This document shows positions 13,058 through 55,142 of a stretch of DNA of 55,939 nucleotides, one piece after another. Within the stretch, counting starts at the first letter, position 1, and each line of letters begins with the position of its first letter. The stretch covers positions 1 through 55,939 of the forward strand of contig JAJRYV010000034.1 in the NCBI GenBank assembly GCA_024275575.1, in the 5' to 3' direction. Origin of the DNA: a bacterium. GTDB lineage: Bacteria > Zhuqueibacterota > Zhuqueibacteria > Zhuqueibacterales > Geothermadaptataceae. The position numbers were made by a program, and so were the translations under genes. The notes under the pieces are model-generated. The model searched no databases. It saw only the letters and a list, made by a program, of their open reading frames with translations, and had not been told where the DNA came from.

Positions 13058-14599
13058 ATGTTATCCAAAATCAAAAGTGCTGCAGTACTCGGTATCGACG
13101 CTTATATCGTCACGGTTGAAACCCATCTCGAAGGTCAACTTCCATCCATTTTAACTGTCGGTTTGCCCGAGGGTGCGGTCAGGGAATCGAAAGAACGTAT
13201 TTGGGCGGCGATCAAAAACAGCGATCTGCATTTCCCCCAAAAACGGGTCACCATCAATCTAGCGCCGGCGGATATTAAAAAGGAAGGAACGGGTTTCGAC
13301 CTGCCCATGGCCATCGGCATTCTTACCGCCGGCGGGCAAATTTCCCGCAACAAAATCAAAGACTACCTCATCATCGGCGAACTCTCCCTCGATGGCAGTC
13401 TGCAGCCGGTACACGGGGTTTTGCCGATCGCAATAATCGCTAAAAAGAAAAAAATTCGCGGCTTGATTTTGCCACCCGCCAATGCTCGTGAGGCCGCTAT
13501 TGTTGATAATATTGAGGTCATTCCGGTACAAAACCTGACGCAGGCTGTACAATTCCTCAACCACCAGTGTAGCATTGAACCTTTTCGTCTGGACAGTCAT
13601 GACTTGTTTTCCGTTTCCCTGCATAGCCAACTCGATTTCAAGGATGTTAAAGGCCAGGAGAGCACCAAACGTTCACTGGAAATTGCTGCCGCCGGCGGAC
13701 ATAACATCATCATGATCGGACCGCCCGGTTCAGGCAAAACCATGCTTGCAAAACGCTTTGCTACCATTCTGCCGGATATGACTTTGGACGAAGCCCTGGA
13801 AACGACGAAAATCCACTCTGTCGCTGGTTTATTGCCGGCAGATTCCGCTTTGATCGCCACACGACCATTTCGCTCACCGCACCACACCATCAGCGACGCC
13901 GGGCTCATCGGCGGCGGCAAAATCCCCAAACCCGGCGAAGTCAGCCTGTCGCATCACGGCGTACTCTTCCTTGACGAGATGCCGGAATTCAAAAAAAATG
14001 TGCTCGAAGTGCTGCGCCAGCCGATGGAAGACGGCACCGTCACCATCTCACGGGCGATTCTTTCACTCACCTATCCGGCAAAATTTTTGCTCATCACTGC
14101 GATGAACCCCTGCCCATGCGGTTATTTAAACGATCCGAAACACGAATGCTCATGCACAGCGCCACAAGTGCAACGTTATCTCGCAAGAATCAGCGGCCCC
14201 TTGCTGGACCGCATCGACATTCACGTGGAAGTTCCGGCGGTAAAATACAAGGAATTAGCGTCGACACTGCATGGCGAAACCTCGGCAGAGATTCGCGTGC
14301 GCGTTATGCAGGCACGGGAGCGCCAACAGCAGCGTTACAAAGATTTAAAACATGTTTTCTGCAATGCACATATGGGGCCGCGGGAAATCCGCAGCTTCTG
14401 TAAAATAGATAACGAAAGCCAGGAACTGCTGCGGGTCGCTATCAACAAGCTGGGATTCTCCGCCCGCGCTTACGACCGCATTCTCAAAGTTGGCCGCACC
14501 ATTGCTGATCTGGCAGCGAATGAGAATATTCAGCCCGATCATATCAGCGAAGCAATCCAATATCGAAGTCTTGACAGAAACTTTAGTTTTGTTGGATAA
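13058..14599 (+). CDS. ComM/YifB family Mg-chelatase-like AAA+ ATPase
   Basis: A 513-residue cytosolic ATPase. The N-terminal ChlI-like domain (about 1-180) has the typical LPSILTVGLPEGAVRESKER. Walker A is GPPGSGKTMLAKR near residue 222, Walker B is VLFLDEMPEF near 305, and TAMNPCPCG with a second Cys pair (HECSCT) near 350 is the zinc-like insertion seen in YifB. The C-terminal lid carries SARAYDRILKVGRTIADL. In Vibrio and Haemophilus ComM is a hexameric helicase that drives branch migration during natural transformation. The gene is monocistronic with its own TTGACA promoter. Confidence 0.96.
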   Translation: MLSKIKSAAVLGIDAYIVTVETHLEGQLPSILTVGLPEGAVRESKERIWAAIKNSDLHFPQKRVTINLAPADIKKEGTGFDLPMAIGILTAGGQISRNKIKDYLIIGELSLDGSLQPVHGVLPIAIIAKKKKIRGLILPPANAREAAIVDNIEVIPVQNLTQAVQFLNHQCSIEPFRLDSHDLFSVSLHSQLDFKDVKGQESTKRSLEIAAAGGHNIIMIGPPGSGKTMLAKRFATILPDMTLDEALETTKIHSVAGLLPADSALIATRPFRSPHHTISDAGLIGGGKIPKPGEVSLSHHGVLFLDEMPEFKKNVLEVLRQPMEDGTVTISRAILSLTYPAKFLLITAMNPCPCGYLNDPKHECSCTAPQVQRYLARISGPLLDRIDIHVEVPAVKYKELASTLHGETSAEIRVRVMQARERQQQRYKDLKHVFCNAHMGPREIRSFCKIDNESQELLRVAINKLGFSARAYDRILKVGRTIADLAANENIQPDHISEAIQYRSLDRNFSFVG

Positions 14600-14683
14600 A
14601 AAATTTTATTATAATAGTAGACCAGGCAGGACGCTGCGGTAATTCACATCACCTGTTCATCTTGCTTTATGAGGATAACGAAA

Positions 14684-15028
14684 ATGCAAGACTTTATCAC
14701 CTCCATTCCCATCATGTTCAGCCTGATTCTCATTCTGGCAACGCTGTTTATTTTACAGATATGGGCTATCGTTCGGGTAAAAATGATGCTCAAGCGGGTT
14801 GCAGAAATCCATGAATGGGTACAGGCCGGTAAATTGGGCACTTCGACATATTTTTCACGTTACCGGCAACCAGCAAAAACCTGCAAAAACTGCCGTTTCC
14901 GCTCCACCTATCTCGCACAGGAAGAGGATGTGCAGTTTATTTACTATTGCAAAAAAAATGATATCGAAACTTCACTGAAAAATTCATGCCTGCAGTTTCA
15001 GGTCGACCCTGAAATTATCAAGTCCTGA
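14684..15028 (+). CDS. Small membrane protein with a four-Cys cytosolic domain
   Basis: About 114 residues. I prefer the ATG at 14684 because GAGG is 9 nt upstream; an ATG 15 bases earlier overlaps that site. One hydrophobic helix (about residues 5-27) is followed by a basic amphipathic stretch. A small domain then holds CKNC, a third Cys in YYCKKN and a fourth in NSCLQF, a possible zinc site. No family is recognised. The gene ends 3 bp before the STAS gene, and the pair is probably co-translated, so this protein may be the membrane partner of the STAS switch. That link is inference from position only. Confidence 0.7.
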   Translation: MQDFITSIPIMFSLILILATLFILQIWAIVRVKMMLKRVAEIHEWVQAGKLGTSTYFSRYRQPAKTCKNCRFRSTYLAQEEDVQFIYYCKKNDIETSLKNSCLQFQVDPEIIKS

Positions 15029-15031
15029 CCC

Positions 15032-15382
15032 ATGCTGCAAAAAGATAAAATTTTATCGATTGAAAAGAAAAACGATGCCTCTGTCGTGTCGCTACATGAA
15101 AAACGCATCTACATGCAATTCACCGATCAATTCCGGCAGGAGATGAACGCCTTGTTGAAGACAGAGCAAGGCCATATCATCATCAATTTCTCAGGGGTAA
15201 ACATGATTAACAGCCTAGCGATTGGTATACTGATATCAACGGCCAACGAGTTGAAAACACGAAAAAGACAACTGATTATCGTAGGATTGAACAAACAAAT
15301 AGAAGAATTATTTTCCAGGATGAGGCTGGATAAGATTTTTATGATCCGGGAAAATATAACGAAAGGTTTGGCTGCACTTTAA
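15032..15382 (+). CDS. STAS-domain protein (anti-sigma-factor antagonist-like)
   Basis: A 116-residue single STAS domain. The core strand-helix reads IIINFSGVNMINSLAIGILI, in the place where SpoIIAA-type antagonists have DLSGV...DSSGLG. The Ser that is phosphorylated in SpoIIAA (second Ser of DSSG) is Leu here, while the preceding Ser is kept. Such proteins bind anti-sigma kinases or take part in stressosome and lipid-transport complexes. No anti-sigma kinase is adjacent. It is the second gene of a two-gene unit with the four-Cys membrane protein. Its stop codon abuts the end of the minus-strand structured RNA. Confidence 0.85.
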   Translation: MLQKDKILSIEKKNDASVVSLHEKRIYMQFTDQFRQEMNALLKTEQGHIIINFSGVNMINSLAIGILISTANELKTRKRQLIIVGLNKQIEELFSRMRLDKIFMIRENITKGLAAL

Positions 15383-15573
15383 AAAAAATGCCCTGCATCT
15401 GCAAAGAGTAACAAAGGACCGAATCGGACAAAATGGGCACCGCCTACTCGCTTCTCACTTCCTTCAAATTCCTGAGAATTAAGGCCTGTAATACACGGGA
15501 TAGAGCTAAGCTCCCAACTTATAGGTGTTGGTCTTTATTCTGCTTCGCAAGATGATGCAGGGATTTTTTTGCT
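15383..15573 (-). ncRNA. Structured RNA of about 190 nt, 6S-like
   Basis: The minus strand has a strong sigma-70 promoter (15580-15607) and ends in a T-run (complement of 15381-15388). The ends of the RNA pair with each other: CCCTGCATC near the 5' end and GATGCAGGG just before the T-run. Inside this, TGCGAAG pairs with CTTTGCA and AAAGACC with GGTCCTTT (one bulge). A large open middle follows, with a small hairpin GGGAGCTTAGCTCTATCCC on the 5' side, and a terminal hairpin of CCTT-AATTC and GGAATT-GAAGG. Length and layout (closing stem, central bubble, terminal stem) fit 6S RNA, which holds sigma-70 RNA polymerase in stationary phase. The 6S name rests on architecture only; a different small RNA is possible. 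Confidence 0.6.
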
Positions 15574-15579
15574 GCTTTT

Positions 15580-15607
15580 AATATACCAAATTGAGTTATA
15601 ATGTCAA
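15580..15607 (-). promoter_or_regulatory. Promoter of the 6S-like RNA
   Basis: On the minus strand, TTGACA (15607-15602), a 16-nt spacer and TATATT (15585-15580). Transcription should start near 15573. This is among the best sigma-70 matches in the window and fixes the strand of the structured RNA. Confidence 0.7.
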
Positions 15608-15853
15608 GCCTTTGTTCACTCACTCAATCGGCTCGTTGCGAAACATCTTTATTAAAAAGAGCAGGTTATCAGTCATATTAAATTTAGTAAAGATTCTGAC
15701 ATTGAACTCATCCGGGCACGGCAGTTGGGCCAGGCCGAAAATTGAAATAAAATTAACCCGAAACTGAAATATTTCAAGCATTAAACGATATTGTTTCGTA
15801 TTTTATACAAGATTTTAACTTCCCAAAATACTGTCCGATTAGCGGAGTTTGCC

Positions 15854-17158
15854 GTGTTAAACAGAATTAAACACTTTGCCCTGCTGATTATCTGTGTTTT
15901 CAACTCACCTGCCGGCGAAGCTGTAGAAAATTCAGTGCTGGTTGCAACCATCGATGGCGCCATCAATCCTGTTTCTGCAGAATATATTATACGCGCCGTC
16001 GACCACGCCGAAGACGAGAAATTTCAAGCGCTTATTCTACAGATTGATACCCCGGGCGGCCTACTTGAATCCACCAGACAGATCACGAAAAAATTTCTTG
16101 CCGCAAAAATCCCCATCATCGTTTACGTTTCTCCCAGCGGCGGGCGGGCGGCCTCAGCCGGTGTTTTTATCAGCTATGCGGCACACCTCGTCGCTATGGC
16201 ACCTTCGACAAATATCGGCGCCGCGCATCCGGTGACATTGCAGGGTGGCGCCGATTCAAGCCAAACTGCGATGATGGAAAAAATCACCAACGACGCTGTT
16301 GCCCAGATAAAGGGGCTGGCCGACAAACGTGGTCGCAATGCCGAATGGGCGGAAAAAGCCGTGCGGGAAAGCGTTTCGATTACTGCATCGGAAGCCTTGA
16401 AATTGAACGTCGCAGATCTGATCTCACCAAACATCGACAGTTTGCTGATTCAAATTGATGCGAAAAAAATCAAAATTAAAGAGCAGGAAGTGACCCTGAA
16501 CACGCAAGGTGCGGAACTCGTTTACTACGAAATGACCTGGCGCGATCGCATTCTCGATATGGTTACCAATCCCAATATCGCCTACTTTTTTCTGATGATT
16601 GCCATGTGGGGCATTTTTTTCGAGCTTTCCAATCCCGGTTCCATTTTTCCGGGTGTCGTCGGCGCCATTTCACTGCTGATATTTCTTTATGCAACACAAA
16701 CCTTGCCGGTGAACTACGCCGGCCTGTTGCTCATCATCCTGGCGATTGTTCTCTTTATTCTCGAAGTAAAAATCGTTAGTTTTGGATTACTGACCCTGGG
16801 AGGAATTATCGCTATGGCGCTCGGATCACTCATGCTTTTCGAATCGCCGGACAGCATTATGGCGCCGGTATTTGGGGTCAGTTTGTCACTGGTTATGACG
16901 TTTTCTGTTATCACCGCCATCGTTTTTATCTCGGCGCTCACGCTGGCTTTTAAAGCACGGCGACGCCAGGTTTCCACAGGCAAAGAAGGTCTGGTGGGAG
17001 AAAAAGGTATAACGCGCAGCACCGTGTTTAAAACCGGCAAAGTCCGGGTGCACGGCGAAATCTGGAATGCATATGCCGATCAGGAGATTGCGGAAGGGGC
17101 TGATATCATCGTTACCGCTGTTGAAGGCCTGAAAATAAAGATCAAAGAAGTTTCATAA
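15854..17158 (+). CDS. NfeD family membrane serine protease
   Basis: About 434 residues from the GTG at 15854, preceded by GCGGAG; an upstream TTG at 15791 would add 21 residues ahead of the signal sequence and lacks a ribosome-binding site. After the export signal comes a ClpP-like protease domain: IDTPGG, PSGGRAASAG with the nucleophilic Ser, then GAAHPV. Several membrane helices follow (about 250-380, including FFLMIAMWGIFFELSNPG), and the C-terminus is the NfeD OB-fold (GLVGEKGITRS...VHGEIWNAYAD). In Pyrococcus, the homologue 1510-N cleaves the C-terminus of the slipin encoded next door. Here too a slipin follows 77 bp downstream, so the pair is a membrane quality-control unit. Confidence 0.93.
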   Translation: MLNRIKHFALLIICVFNSPAGEAVENSVLVATIDGAINPVSAEYIIRAVDHAEDEKFQALILQIDTPGGLLESTRQITKKFLAAKIPIIVYVSPSGGRAASAGVFISYAAHLVAMAPSTNIGAAHPVTLQGGADSSQTAMMEKITNDAVAQIKGLADKRGRNAEWAEKAVRESVSITASEALKLNVADLISPNIDSLLIQIDAKKIKIKEQEVTLNTQGAELVYYEMTWRDRILDMVTNPNIAYFFLMIAMWGIFFELSNPGSIFPGVVGAISLLIFLYATQTLPVNYAGLLLIILAIVLFILEVKIVSFGLLTLGGIIAMALGSLMLFESPDSIMAPVFGVSLSLVMTFSVITAIVFISALTLAFKARRRQVSTGKEGLVGEKGITRSTVFKTGKVRVHGEIWNAYADQEIAEGADIIVTAVEGLKIKIKEVS

Positions 17159-51419: not shown

Positions 51420-51492
51420 GGGGCTGTAGCTCAGTTGGGAGAGCGCATGACTGGCAGTCATGAGGTCGTCGGTTCGATCCCGGTCAGCTCCA
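51420..51492 (+). tRNA. tRNA-Ala (GGC)
   Basis: Complete 73-nt cloverleaf: acceptor GGGGCTG / CAGCTCC, D-arm GCTC...GAGC, anticodon stem CATGA/TCATG with loop CTGGCAG (anticodon GGC), T-arm with GTTCGATC. Discriminator A; CCA is not encoded. A terminator follows 8 bp later, so it is a single-gene transcript. Confidence 0.97.
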
Positions 51493-51499
51493 CAGCTTA

Positions 51500-51534
51500 A
51501 AAAAGGATACTGTTACACTGTATCCTTTTTTTTT
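51500..51534 (+). terminator. Terminator of tRNA-Ala
   Basis: AAAAAGGATA (51500-51509) and TATCCTTTTT (51521-51530) form a 10-bp stem that runs into T. Confidence 0.88.
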
Positions 51535-51595
51535 GCAATTCTATCTTTGTTCTGCCGAAACACCCGCCTGCAGAAAACATGATTTATACTTATCA

Positions 51596-52363
51596 TCATA
51601 CATATATCTCATGCACATCCGTCGCTTCCAACTCCAGCAAAAAAGTTGCAATTTCATTGGTGATCACTTCAAAATAAGCGGCACCCTTCTCTGCCGTTGC
51701 CTGCCGGGGATCACCCACGCCGGTATCTTCTGTAACCTGCGTCCACTGCCGTGGCGCCCATGCCCATTTTTCCCGTAACCCATTAATTTTAAATTGCTTC
51801 GCACTGCCATCCCCGGCCTCGGTCAGCGGCAAAACCAACTCCGGAAAGAGATGCAACATCAGACTGGTCTCCATTTCGTCAGCATGGTCGCCATCCACTG
51901 CAAACAATGCCTCTTTTGCTGATACCATAAACCAGTTAACCTGGCACAGAAAAATGTTTGTTTTCACCTGCGCCTCCCGGATGATATTTTTAAAATCATT
52001 GCCGCCGTGACCGTTTAAAACCACTAATTTTTTAATGCCATGCGGTGCCAGACTTTCCACCACATCCACGAAAACTGCGGCGTGGGTTGTCGGGTTCATA
52101 TTGATGGTCAGTGGAATATCCAACTGTTGTGTATTGACACCAAAAGGAATGGCGGGCAAAATGATTGGTTTTGCGCCCTTTTCCCAGGCGAGATGAGCGC
52201 TCTCTGCGGCAATTGCTTCAGTTTCGAAAATATCCGTTCCATACGGCAAATGATAATTATGTGCTTCAGTCGCTCCCCAGGGTAAAACAGCGACTTCAAA
52301 GGTGGTTTCTTTTACAGTTTTCCAGTTCGTTTCCTTTAAAATATGTGGCCGTTGCGTTTTCAT
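51596..52363 (-). CDS. Creatininase-family amidohydrolase
   Basis: A 255-residue cytosolic metal hydrolase of the creatininase / MftE / FAPy-deformylase family. Metal-ligand segments are LPWGATEAHNYHLPYGTDIF (Glu and two His/Asp), VLNGHGGNDF and DGDHADEMETSLML. Members cleave cyclic or formyl amides (creatinine, formamidopyrimidines) or trim peptide cofactors. Nothing nearby fixes the substrate. A cytosolic single-domain enzyme of standard length; the gene stands alone. Confidence 0.92.
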   Translation of the reverse strand: MKTQRPHILKETNWKTVKETTFEVAVLPWGATEAHNYHLPYGTDIFETEAIAAESAHLAWEKGAKPIILPAIPFGVNTQQLDIPLTINMNPTTHAAVFVDVVESLAPHGIKKLVVLNGHGGNDFKNIIREAQVKTNIFLCQVNWFMVSAKEALFAVDGDHADEMETSLMLHLFPELVLPLTEAGDGSAKQFKINGLREKWAWAPRQWTQVTEDTGVGDPRQATAEKGAAYFEVITNEIATFLLELEATDVHEIYV

Positions 52364-52506
52364 ATTCTCTCCATTGTCTAATAATATCTATTGCAGAATT
52401 GCTCAACGAAAGATAATAAAAACAAGGTAAATTGTAGAGATTTATTTAAAAAGGCTGGAAATCAGATCAGGGTGATATTTGCCCCGGGATGGATTGGACA
52501 TAAAAA

Positions 52507-52531
52507 GAGGATAACGATCAGATCGTATCCT
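52507..52531 (-). terminator. Terminator of the small zinc-finger-like gene
   Basis: AGGATA(A)CGAT and ATCGTATCCT arms around CAG, followed on the minus strand by CTCTTTTTATG. It lies 65 bp after the stop at 52597. Confidence 0.65.
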
Positions 52532-52596
52532 TTCAGTCGTAAATTTCAGTAATGAGGAACCGGGCAATTCATTGAAAAAACCTGGGAACCGGCAAA

Positions 52597-52803
52597 TCAG
52601 GTTACAGCCTCAGTAGATTCAGCCATTTCAACGTGCAATAGCCCGAGTTTGATAAAACTCAGCATATTTTTCCCGCATCCATTTGCACATTGATATTCGT
52701 GAAACAACATGTCGGTATCATCGCTGTCGTGCACGGTAAATTTCTTTACGCCGCCACATGCTTCACACGTAATGATAAATTCATTGTAGTGGATATCTTC
52801 CAT
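52597..52803 (-). CDS. Small protein with CxxC...CxxxC pattern
   Basis: 68 residues from the ATG at 52803, which has GGAG 6 nt upstream. CEACGG near residue 13 and CANGCG near 39 form a likely zinc ribbon (Cys pairs CxxC and CxxxC). It is acidic, with no membrane segment. No family is recognised. It is divergent from the CgeB-like glycosyltransferase gene and has its own terminator. Confidence 0.65.
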   Translation of the reverse strand: MEDIHYNEFIITCEACGGVKKFTVHDSDDTDMLFHEYQCANGCGKNMLSFIKLGLLHVEMAESTEAVT

Positions 52804-52927
52804 TATCAGCTCCAAATACGATTATCAAATGCATTGTGCATCTTCCCATTTCCCACTTAAACTATACAACAATAACCACCGGTTTGCATGTTTTTTTTTC
52901 GAAAACTACATCTTATTTGCAATAACT

Positions 52928-54700
52928 ATGTTTTTACCGGATTTTTTTTTCAATGCCGATAATGCCGGTAAAAAACATTCAGGCAATTATCTTCTCCTCA
53001 TGTGTAGAAAAAACGCAGCAGCCCTTGCACTGACACATTCTCCACCGGCTATATATACAGAGCTGACTTTGCAGAATAATCTTGCAGCGTTATATCCGGT
53101 GGCTCCGTTGCTGGTCAACCGTATCTGCCTACCGACAGCTTCACAGCATATTTTCTTCAACGAACAAGGACAACTTTTTTATCGGCTGCAACGCAATCTT
53201 TTTCCTTTTAATTTACAGCTTTCCAACAATATCATTGCCGCTCTTTCTGAAAAAAGCCATATTGAAACGTTGGCCGTTTTCGGAGTTTTTGATGGTGAAG
53301 CAATGAAAAAACTGCTCACAGAAGGTCGTTGCAAACGCCTCATTTTATGGGAACGTGATCCCTGGCTACTGCGCCTGTTGCTCATGCGTTATGACTTCGT
53401 TGCAGAAATAGTTGGCGGTAAAATCCGCTTTCACCTCGGCATCGATTTACTCAAACTGCGACAACAAAACCAAATCAAATGGCTATTCAACCCGTTTTCG
53501 GAAAAACTTTATCACTGGGAAAAAAAGCTGGTTGAACGCGAAAAAATCGCAAATAGAGCCCTGGTTTGCACCGGTGGTTTATTTATTGATGATATTTGTG
53601 AAACGCTGCATGATTGCGATTATGCCATTTATCAAATCGACGTGCAGGCACTGGCGGTGGAAGAAATTCAATTGGCGCTGGAGAGTTTTCAACCGGATTT
53701 TGTTTTCAGCGTCAATTATCTCAACGGACTGGCGGAATTGTGCCACGCAGCACAGGTTCCACTTTTTATCTGGGAGATCGATCCGGCAACCGATGCGGTC
53801 ATGATAACCGGGGCCGCGGCCGAAAGCAGCGCTATTTTCACTTATAATCAGGTCAATGTGCAAAAACATCAATCGACCGGATTTCGTATTGCGCGCTATT
53901 TGCCCCTCGCAGCAAACCCGCAAAAGCGTTGTTTTCAGAAAAAAACTGAAAAAAAATACAGCGCAAAAGTTTCATTCGTCGGCACCAGCATGCTTGAACA
54001 GGCACAAAAGAGCAAACAGGCATTTATCGACATTTATAATTCGTGCGTGAATACAGATGCGCCCGGATTAAAACAGGCCGAAGAAATCGTTGCAGCCTGT
54101 CTCGATTTTCAGCGGCAGGATTTCACGAAATTTCTCATCCCTGCCGCCCTGGGAAAATATGCCCCGGATTTTCATGCTCTCTGCCAATCGAATGCTTTCA
54201 GCGCCGACCCGGTCACGCTTCTTGCCGAAAGCGCCGCGGCGGAAAAACGCATGAATTACCTGATCGGGTTGGCCTGTTGCGGTTTAAAAATCTGGGGCGA
54301 TAGTGGCTGGGAATTATTGGAGAATTACGGCGTAAAATATATGGGAACAGCCGGTCATTTCTATGAACTAAATCACATTTACTCCGCTTCGGCGATCAAT
54401 CTCGACATCAGCCGTATTTATCAAATGGAAATCATCACCATGCGCGTTTTTGATATCCTGGCTTGCGGCGGATTTCTGCTCACTGAGGACAATGCGGCTT
54501 TGCGGGAAATCTTCACCCCGGGCAAACATCTCGATACCTACCAAAGCAGCTCGGAACTCATTGAAAAAACAGCCTATTACCTGGCACATCCACAGGCGGC
54601 GCGTAAAATAGCATTAGCCGGCCAAAAACTGGTGCATGACAAACATAAAATTTCCGATCGCATAAACGAAATCTTCAAATCTGCAGCGGCGTTTGTATAG
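52928..54700 (+). CDS. CgeB-like glycosyltransferase
   Basis: About 590 residues from the ATG at 52928; codons back to 52829 are low in information and probably not translated, though no clear ribosome-binding site separates the two. The N-terminal 220 residues are of an uncertain fold with IETLAVFGVFDGEAMKKLL. A central DUF3880-like part (DYAIYQIDVQALAVEEIQLAL, FQPDFVFSVNYLNGLAEL, VPLFIWEIDP) leads to a GT4/CgeB-type domain ending GVKYMGTAGHFYELNHIYSASAINLDIS, MRVFDILACGGFLLTEDNAALREIF. CgeB-type enzymes glycosylate surface or flagellar proteins. Partner genes are not visible. It is followed by the tRNA cluster. Confidence 0.85.
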   Translation: MFLPDFFFNADNAGKKHSGNYLLLMCRKNAAALALTHSPPAIYTELTLQNNLAALYPVAPLLVNRICLPTASQHIFFNEQGQLFYRLQRNLFPFNLQLSNNIIAALSEKSHIETLAVFGVFDGEAMKKLLTEGRCKRLILWERDPWLLRLLLMRYDFVAEIVGGKIRFHLGIDLLKLRQQNQIKWLFNPFSEKLYHWEKKLVEREKIANRALVCTGGLFIDDICETLHDCDYAIYQIDVQALAVEEIQLALESFQPDFVFSVNYLNGLAELCHAAQVPLFIWEIDPATDAVMITGAAAESSAIFTYNQVNVQKHQSTGFRIARYLPLAANPQKRCFQKKTEKKYSAKVSFVGTSMLEQAQKSKQAFIDIYNSCVNTDAPGLKQAEEIVAACLDFQRQDFTKFLIPAALGKYAPDFHALCQSNAFSADPVTLLAESAAAEKRMNYLIGLACCGLKIWGDSGWELLENYGVKYMGTAGHFYELNHIYSASAINLDISRIYQMEIITMRVFDILACGGFLLTEDNAALREIFTPGKHLDTYQSSSELIEKTAYYLAHPQAARKIALAGQKLVHDKHKISDRINEIFKSAAAFV

Positions 54701-54743
54701 AATCATTGTTTTACAAATTGACAACTTCTTTTCGAAAAACCGC

Positions 54744-54772
54744 TTGCGTTGATATTCAAAAAAGTTTATCTT
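54744..54772 (+). promoter_or_regulatory. Probable promoter of the tRNA cluster
   Basis: TTGCGT (54744-54749), a 17-nt spacer and TATCTT (54767-54772), 18 bp before the first tRNA. An overlapping TTGATA at 54749 is an alternative -35. Confidence 0.4.
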
Positions 54773-54790
54773 TACAACTCTTAAAAATAA

Positions 54791-54862
54791 GCGAGAGTAG
54801 TTCAGTGGTAGAACACCACCTTGCCAAGGTGGGGGTCGCGAGTTCGAATCTCGTCTCTCGCT
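54791..54862 (+). tRNA. tRNA-Gly (GCC), copy 1
   Basis: 72-nt cloverleaf: acceptor GCGAGAG / CTCTCGC, anticodon stem CCACC/GGTGG with loop TTGCCAA (anticodon GCC), T-loop TTCGAATC, discriminator T. It is identical to the copy at 55071-55142. Confidence 0.97.
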
Positions 54863-54868
54863 CTTTTC

Positions 54869-54941
54869 GGCGGCGTAGCCAAGTGGTTAAGGCAGAGGTT
54901 TGCAAAACCTCCATTCATCGGTTCGACTCCGATCGCCGCCT
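54869..54941 (+). tRNA. tRNA-Cys (GCA)
   Basis: 73-nt cloverleaf: acceptor GGCGGCG / CGCCGCC, anticodon stem GAGGT/ACCTC with loop TTGCAAA (anticodon GCA), discriminator T as expected for tRNA-Cys. Six bp after tRNA-Gly. Confidence 0.97.
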
Positions 54942-54950
54942 CACTAATGC

Positions 54951-55036
54951 GCCGGGGTGGCGAAATTGGTAGACGCAAGGGACTTAAAATCCCTCGGGCA
55001 GTTATGTCCGTGCCGGTTCGAGTCCGGCCCTCGGTA
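54951..55036 (+). tRNA. tRNA-Leu (TAA)
   Basis: 86-nt class II tRNA: acceptor GCCGGGG / CCTCGGT, anticodon stem AGGGA/TCCCT with loop CTTAAAA (anticodon TAA), a long variable arm GGGCAGTTATGTCC, T-loop GTTCGAGTC and discriminator A. Confidence 0.97.
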
Positions 55037-55070
55037 CATTTTTTCCACCACCGGTTTCGCAACATCATCA

Positions 55071-55142
55071 GCGAGAGTAGTTCAGTGGTAGAACACCACC
55101 TTGCCAAGGTGGGGGTCGCGAGTTCGAATCTCGTCTCTCGCT
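55071..55142 (+). tRNA. tRNA-Gly (GCC), copy 2
   Basis: Exact repeat of the 72-nt tRNA-Gly at 54791-54862, 34 bp after tRNA-Leu. It ends the Gly-Cys-Leu-Gly cluster. Confidence 0.97.

Follow-up and report, generated by a model that had tools for sequence, protein, structure and literature searches.

The minus strand of this Zhuqueibacterota (KSB1) contig almost certainly encodes the single 6S RNA (ssrS-type) gene of the genome. 6S RNA belongs to a small group of RNAs whose regulatory target is RNA polymerase itself; it mimics an open promoter and shuts down the polymerase when cells stop growing. In the window, by which we mean the whole stretch of 55,939 nucleotides analyzed, the predicted gene and transcript occupy positions 15384–15573 on the minus strand, with the start placed ~7 nt past the −10 element and the end at a T-run. 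The gene is assigned to 6S RNA by orthology, the score of the general 6S model (RF00013) itself not being reached; the support for this assignment, indirect but strong, comes from comparison of sequences. Orthology to accepted RF00013 members is seen in DNA homologues, in RF00013 matches in relatives, in a match to a covariance model of the phylum (R1) and in gene order. This is a known kind of RNA and an ordinary gene, in a lineage that is poorly covered by the standard RNA library. An earlier reading, made from the sequence alone, had proposed a 6S RNA here, and it is supported by the relatives' RF00013 matches and by the R1 match at 119 bits.

Orthology to the 6S RNA family

RF00013 gave no match in the window at its gathering score, and none on a 501-base stretch even at E ≤ 10. 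Over the whole genome it returned nothing of substance; one match on another contig (C80, 13 bits over 38 nt) was rejected as noise. 6S-Flavo (RF01685), a lineage-specific form of 6S RNA with its own Rfam family (PMC2864571), is like the present RNA in being such a form, but a search of this genome at E ≤ 10 did not find it. The sequence-only reading had anticipated that the RNA would be hard to find by sequence, and the failure of the Rfam 6S model on the window and the genome-wide silence of 6S-Flavo bear this out. The window copy does not reach the curated RF00013 cut-off. This reflects the reach of the model, since 19 of the 60 relatives pass at the same orthologous locus, and the cut-off marks what the model can detect, not a property of the RNA's biology.

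Homologues of the window RNA were found at the DNA level in 39 of the 60 related genomes, with 91–94% identity within the genus and ~70% over longer alignments in the family and class. An independent RF00013 search of the same 60 relatives matched 43 at E ≤ 1, with 19 above the gathering score, orthologues from the window's family and class among them. Wherever both searches match they agree in place and strand, the coinciding loci including those of G003, G005, G032, G046, G017, G028, G044 and G051; on contig C57 of G003 the RF00013 match spans 119754–119933 and the DNA match 119757–119937. The RF00013 scores in relatives lie between 29 and 58 bits, with none for the window's genus. A cmscan of the loci of four relatives placed three above the cut-off. 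The fourth, that of G003, a member of the window's own family, scores 46.4 bits, which is exactly the cut-off, so the lineage sits near the edge of detection. The Rfam alignment of the orthologues is full length (model 1–187), and the blocks paired in it are the conserved ones seen here: GGGAGC opposite GCACCC, and GACC/GAACC opposite a GG(U)UC block. The RNA is like RF00013 members in its length, in forming a rod with an open center, in being a single gene, and in having GGGAGC/GCACCC at the base of the apical arm and GACC/GG(U)UC beside the bubble. It is unlike them in that the window's genus scores below detection.

Could the likeness to 6S RNA be one of shape only? Ms1 is structurally related to 6S RNA yet binds the core of RNA polymerase (PMC9130861), and shape alone cannot tell the two apart. 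It is nevertheless very unlikely that the window encodes an RNA of this kind, binding core and not holoenzyme and never used as a template. Its orthologues attain the RF00013 gathering score, AACACC in the bubble strand is conserved, as is a pyrimidine where the pRNA should start (see below), and Ms1 was described from Actinobacteria. That this is a structured RNA of unrelated function, such as a trans-acting antisense RNA, with the relatives' RF00013 matches coincidental, might be suggested by their modest scores and their absence in the window's genus, but it is improbable in the extreme, because 43 of 60 genomes are matched, with the same orthologous locus and strand wherever the DNA search also gave a match, which is no chance pattern, and the alignment to the model is full length with the same blocks paired.

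The covariance model R1 was constructed from 44 sequences, with the window's genus left out. It finds the window copy at 15564–15387 on the minus strand, a full-length match (119.3 bits, E = 6.2e-27) that delimits the conserved core of the 6S RNA. Genome-wide there is no second locus, and the sole other match, of 20 bits, is to the complementary strand at this locus. An RNA on the plus strand was rejected as a candidate, given its weaker fold, the lack of a promoter, and a 20-bit R1 match explained by the mirror symmetry of the rod. R1 matches 52 of the 60 relatives; in the phylum as a whole (KSB1/Caldithrix-type MAGs) it finds the RNA in 72 of 82 genomes. A genome with a match almost always has just one. 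The genomes missed are in part incomplete assemblies; among 49 phylum genomes of good quality, three (G010, G021 and G055) gave no match, reflecting assembly gaps or true loss. On E. coli ssrS the model gives 6.8 bits, off register, and the RNA is not recognized. R1 is thus unfit as a general 6S model, and it is RF00013 that connects the present RNA with the model 6S RNAs.

In the KSB1/Caldithrix lineage R1 fills a gap in the detection of 6S RNA. The library scores 6S RNA below its cut-off in most of the genomes tested here and misses some outright, and no paper on 6S RNA in KSB1 or Caldithrix was found among the open-access papers searched. Here 6S RNA is placed in an uncultivated phylum, where its gene is single and conserved. 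One relative, G037, holds two strong R1 matches, at C97:2041–2228 and C207:6188–6378 (161 and 147 bits); these are a possible paralogue pair of the 6S-1/6S-2 type, or possibly contamination (estimated at 5%). B. subtilis also has a 6S-2 paralogue, whereas the window genome has one copy.

Promoter, predicted transcript ends and gene order

On the minus strand a −35 element TTGACA (15602–15607) and a −10 element TATATT (15580–15585), preceded by TG, are separated by a 16-nt spacer, giving 11 of 12 matches. This is the only sigma-70-like site in the interval 15300–15900, and no promoter was found on the plus strand there. A site of this loose class is expected in the interval by chance (a mean of 1.7 in shuffled sequences), so the weight of the promoter rests on its conservation. 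In all 49 genes with enough flank, TTGAC is found in the 90 nt that precede the homologous RNA. Among relatives, the −10 element is TATATT at loci L003 and L004, and TAAATT at L050, L038 and L014. The strong promoter previously proposed is thus present on the minus strand (15607–15580) and conserved in relatives, and the 6S RNA has the appearance of a free-standing gene with its own sigma-70-type promoter. Promoter and fold alone are not decisive, so the weight is carried by the comparison with relatives.

The transcript is presumed to end in an intrinsic terminator tail, the T-run at 15381–15388 (minus), which shares bases with the convergent STAS gene's stop codon. The distance from the expected start near 15573 to this T-run gives the anticipated length of ~190 nt. 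T-runs occur on both sides of the closing stem of the RNA and on both strands (15381–15388 minus, 15565–15571 plus), and the rod may therefore also terminate the convergent STAS transcript. This arrangement, with the STAS gene ending right there, is what would be seen with a plain bidirectional terminator, or with a long untranslated leader lying between the convergent genes, if its conservation were that of a terminator only. Yet a terminator needs no conserved rod of 190 nt, no invariant bubble and no phylum-wide compensatory changes in an apical arm, nor has it any need of its own conserved promoter. We consider this explanation to have almost no likelihood, and retain the 6S RNA gene.

The neighboring genes are all on the plus strand. 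Convergent with the 6S RNA gene are a STAS-domain gene (PF01740, 15032–15382) and a comM-like Mg-chelatase gene (13058–14599), in the same arrangement in 26 and 37 relatives respectively. An NfeD-like gene (15791–17158) is divergent and upstream of the 6S RNA, as in 28 relatives. The counts refer to about 49 loci, and many of these are truncated at a contig end or at the limit of the 1.5 kb flank. The order comM/STAS–6S–nfeD is thus conserved, and it differs from the zapA–ssrS–fau context of E. coli. Between the comM and STAS genes lies a gene for a 119-aa protein (14669–15028) with no Pfam match, which is found beside 6S in nine relatives. Elsewhere in the window there are five tRNA genes (51420–55142), four of them clustered at 54791–55142.

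Fold and covariation of the RNA

In its predicted fold the minus strand pairs from one end to the other around a large open center, at −63.8 kcal/mol (z = −2.8), a fold equalled by 1 of 200 shuffled sequences, and trimming to the RNA core gives z = −3.3. The plus strand folds less well (z = −1.4). End-to-end folding is found in all relatives among those listed. The choice of the minus strand in the sequence-only reading is upheld by this difference in fold, together with the location of the promoter and the R1 match.

Covariation was counted in a sequence-only alignment of 47 RNAs, over 36 pairs in five helices. Over the 47 sequences 95.3% of the cells are paired. Sixteen pairs, comprising 77 cells, are changed on both sides, compared with 10.0 and 20.6 in shuffled alignments, and none of 500 shuffles attains any of the five measures of covariation. 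When the structure was slid by 1–3 columns, at most 7 pairs and 28 cells were changed on both sides, with at most 50.0% paired. Kinship among the sequences inflates such counts, and the slid controls retain that kinship. MAFFT shifts the P2 helix by one column in sequences with a short P2, so pairing there is understated in the count. Double changes are present in the closing stem, in P2 and in the apical arm. Lack of covariance support had been named beforehand as one finding that would refute the 6S reading, and such support was obtained, with 77 double-changed cells against 20.6; these are the compensatory changes that had been sought in relatives. The RNA is thus a rod within the range of about 160–200 nt expected of 6S RNA, with a closing stem, a central bubble and an apical arm, each of the elements described below lying on the minus strand.

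The closing stem (helix 1) is formed by a 5′ arm CCCUGCAUC (15554–15562) and a 3′ arm GAUGCAGGG (15391–15399), and is seen in both the fold and the alignment; 99.3% of its cells are paired, and three pairs are changed on both sides. In the downstream helix P2 (helix 2 of the alignment) the 5′ arm AAAGACC (15530–15536), which would double as pRNA template, pairs with the 3′ arm GGUCCUUU (15413–15420), the latter being seen in the fold also. Four pairs of P2 are changed on both sides. The 5′ strand of the central bubble, AACACCUAUAAGUU (15516–15529), lacks conserved pairing in the alignment, though it is paired in some single-sequence folds, and its AACACC is strongly conserved. The 3′ strand (15421–15434) may be assigned as the −10-like side by analogy with PMC8876501; it includes a short hairpin CCG-AUU-CGG (15427–15419), the GG of which is common to P2. 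The apical arm (15435–15515) runs from GGGAGC to GGUGCCC and contains helices 3–5, in keeping with the Rfam alignment of the orthologues. It is capped by the hairpin AAUUC-UCAG-GAAUU (15480–15467).

The pairing from end to end and the large open center that had been described therefore correspond to the 36 conserved pairs and to the region, free of conserved pairing, that separates P2 from the apical arm. The terminal hairpin described along with them holds in part. There is an apical hairpin (15480–15467), and a weak hairpin of six pairs precedes the T-run at 15406–15391, but the conserved element at the 3′ end is the closing stem CCCUGC...GCAGGG and not a 3′ hairpin. Within the apical arm, GAGCUUAGCUC at 15503–15513 could form a local hairpin, as could nearly all relatives (GAAC-UUC-GUUC in one). 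This local hairpin, GAGC-UUA-GCUC, is possibly a folding intermediate; we do not claim it as a structural element, as it competes with a better-supported long-range helix.

The putative pRNA template and release

In both E. coli and B. subtilis the polymerase starts pRNA synthesis in the 5′ bubble strand beside P2 (PMC8876501, PMC12005410). By analogy, the predicted template in the window is 15527–15540 (minus), from which a 14-nt pRNA 5′-GUUGGUCUUUAUUC would be made with its start opposite C15527. Among the 47 aligned sequences the start column has C 39 times, U 7 times and A once, in a misaligned row, so that the products would begin with G or A. We judged the start from the alignment column because the regular expression that locates it itself demands a pyrimidine. 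In its sequence, then, the RNA has a pyrimidine start in the 5′ bubble strand beside P2 and a predicted purine-initiated product, as expected of a pRNA template.

The pRNA of B. subtilis 6S-1 is 5′-GUUCGGUCAAAACUA (GUUCGGUC...) (PMC12005410), and the product predicted here resembles it. B. subtilis 6S-1 differs in its central bubble collapse helix, of which an informal look found no conserved sign here; in simulation the 3′ bubble strand of the window's relatives instead adopts an extended hairpin. In E. coli, release involves such an extended 3′ bubble hairpin, formed after P2 is unwound (PMC8876501), and this model fits most of the relatives. The ssrS sequence is too distant for R1 to recognize. 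With the template blocked, refolding in the energy model gave a 3′ bubble hairpin using both GG bases of P2 in 26 of the 47 sequences, compared with 7 of 47 when free. This calculated shift resembles the E. coli mode of release. In the constrained fold of the window RNA the 3′ bubble hairpin has just three pairs. The release modes of E. coli and B. subtilis can now be compared in a deep, separate lineage.

From the established biology of 6S RNA, the RNA would accumulate as growth slows. Mimicking an open promoter, it would bind RNA polymerase that carries the primary sigma factor and would block transcription, the apical arm acting as the −35 side, the 3′ bubble strand as the −10-like side, and P2 and the closing stem as the downstream duplex. 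On the return of nutrients the polymerase would transcribe the short pRNA opposite C15527, unwinding P2 and freeing the GG of its 3′ arm. The freed GG would then pair in the 3′ bubble strand hairpin, leading to release of the polymerase. The hairpin step is the least secure part of this scheme, because the hairpin is short in the window's genus.

The window's genus departs from most of its relatives around the bubble. It has the 7-nt AAAGACC with a bulged C opposite, where most relatives have an 8-nt AAAGAGCC, and AUUUUGUCCGAUUCGG replaces ACCGUGUCAAACACGG in the 3′ bubble strand. Its apical hairpin is also short. It is conceivable, though rather doubtful, that the genus lost the extended 3′ bubble hairpin of most of the class and rebuilt a minimal CCG-AUU-CGG sharing the GG. 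If so, other contacts may be needed for pRNA-driven release in this genus, or the step may proceed in another way.
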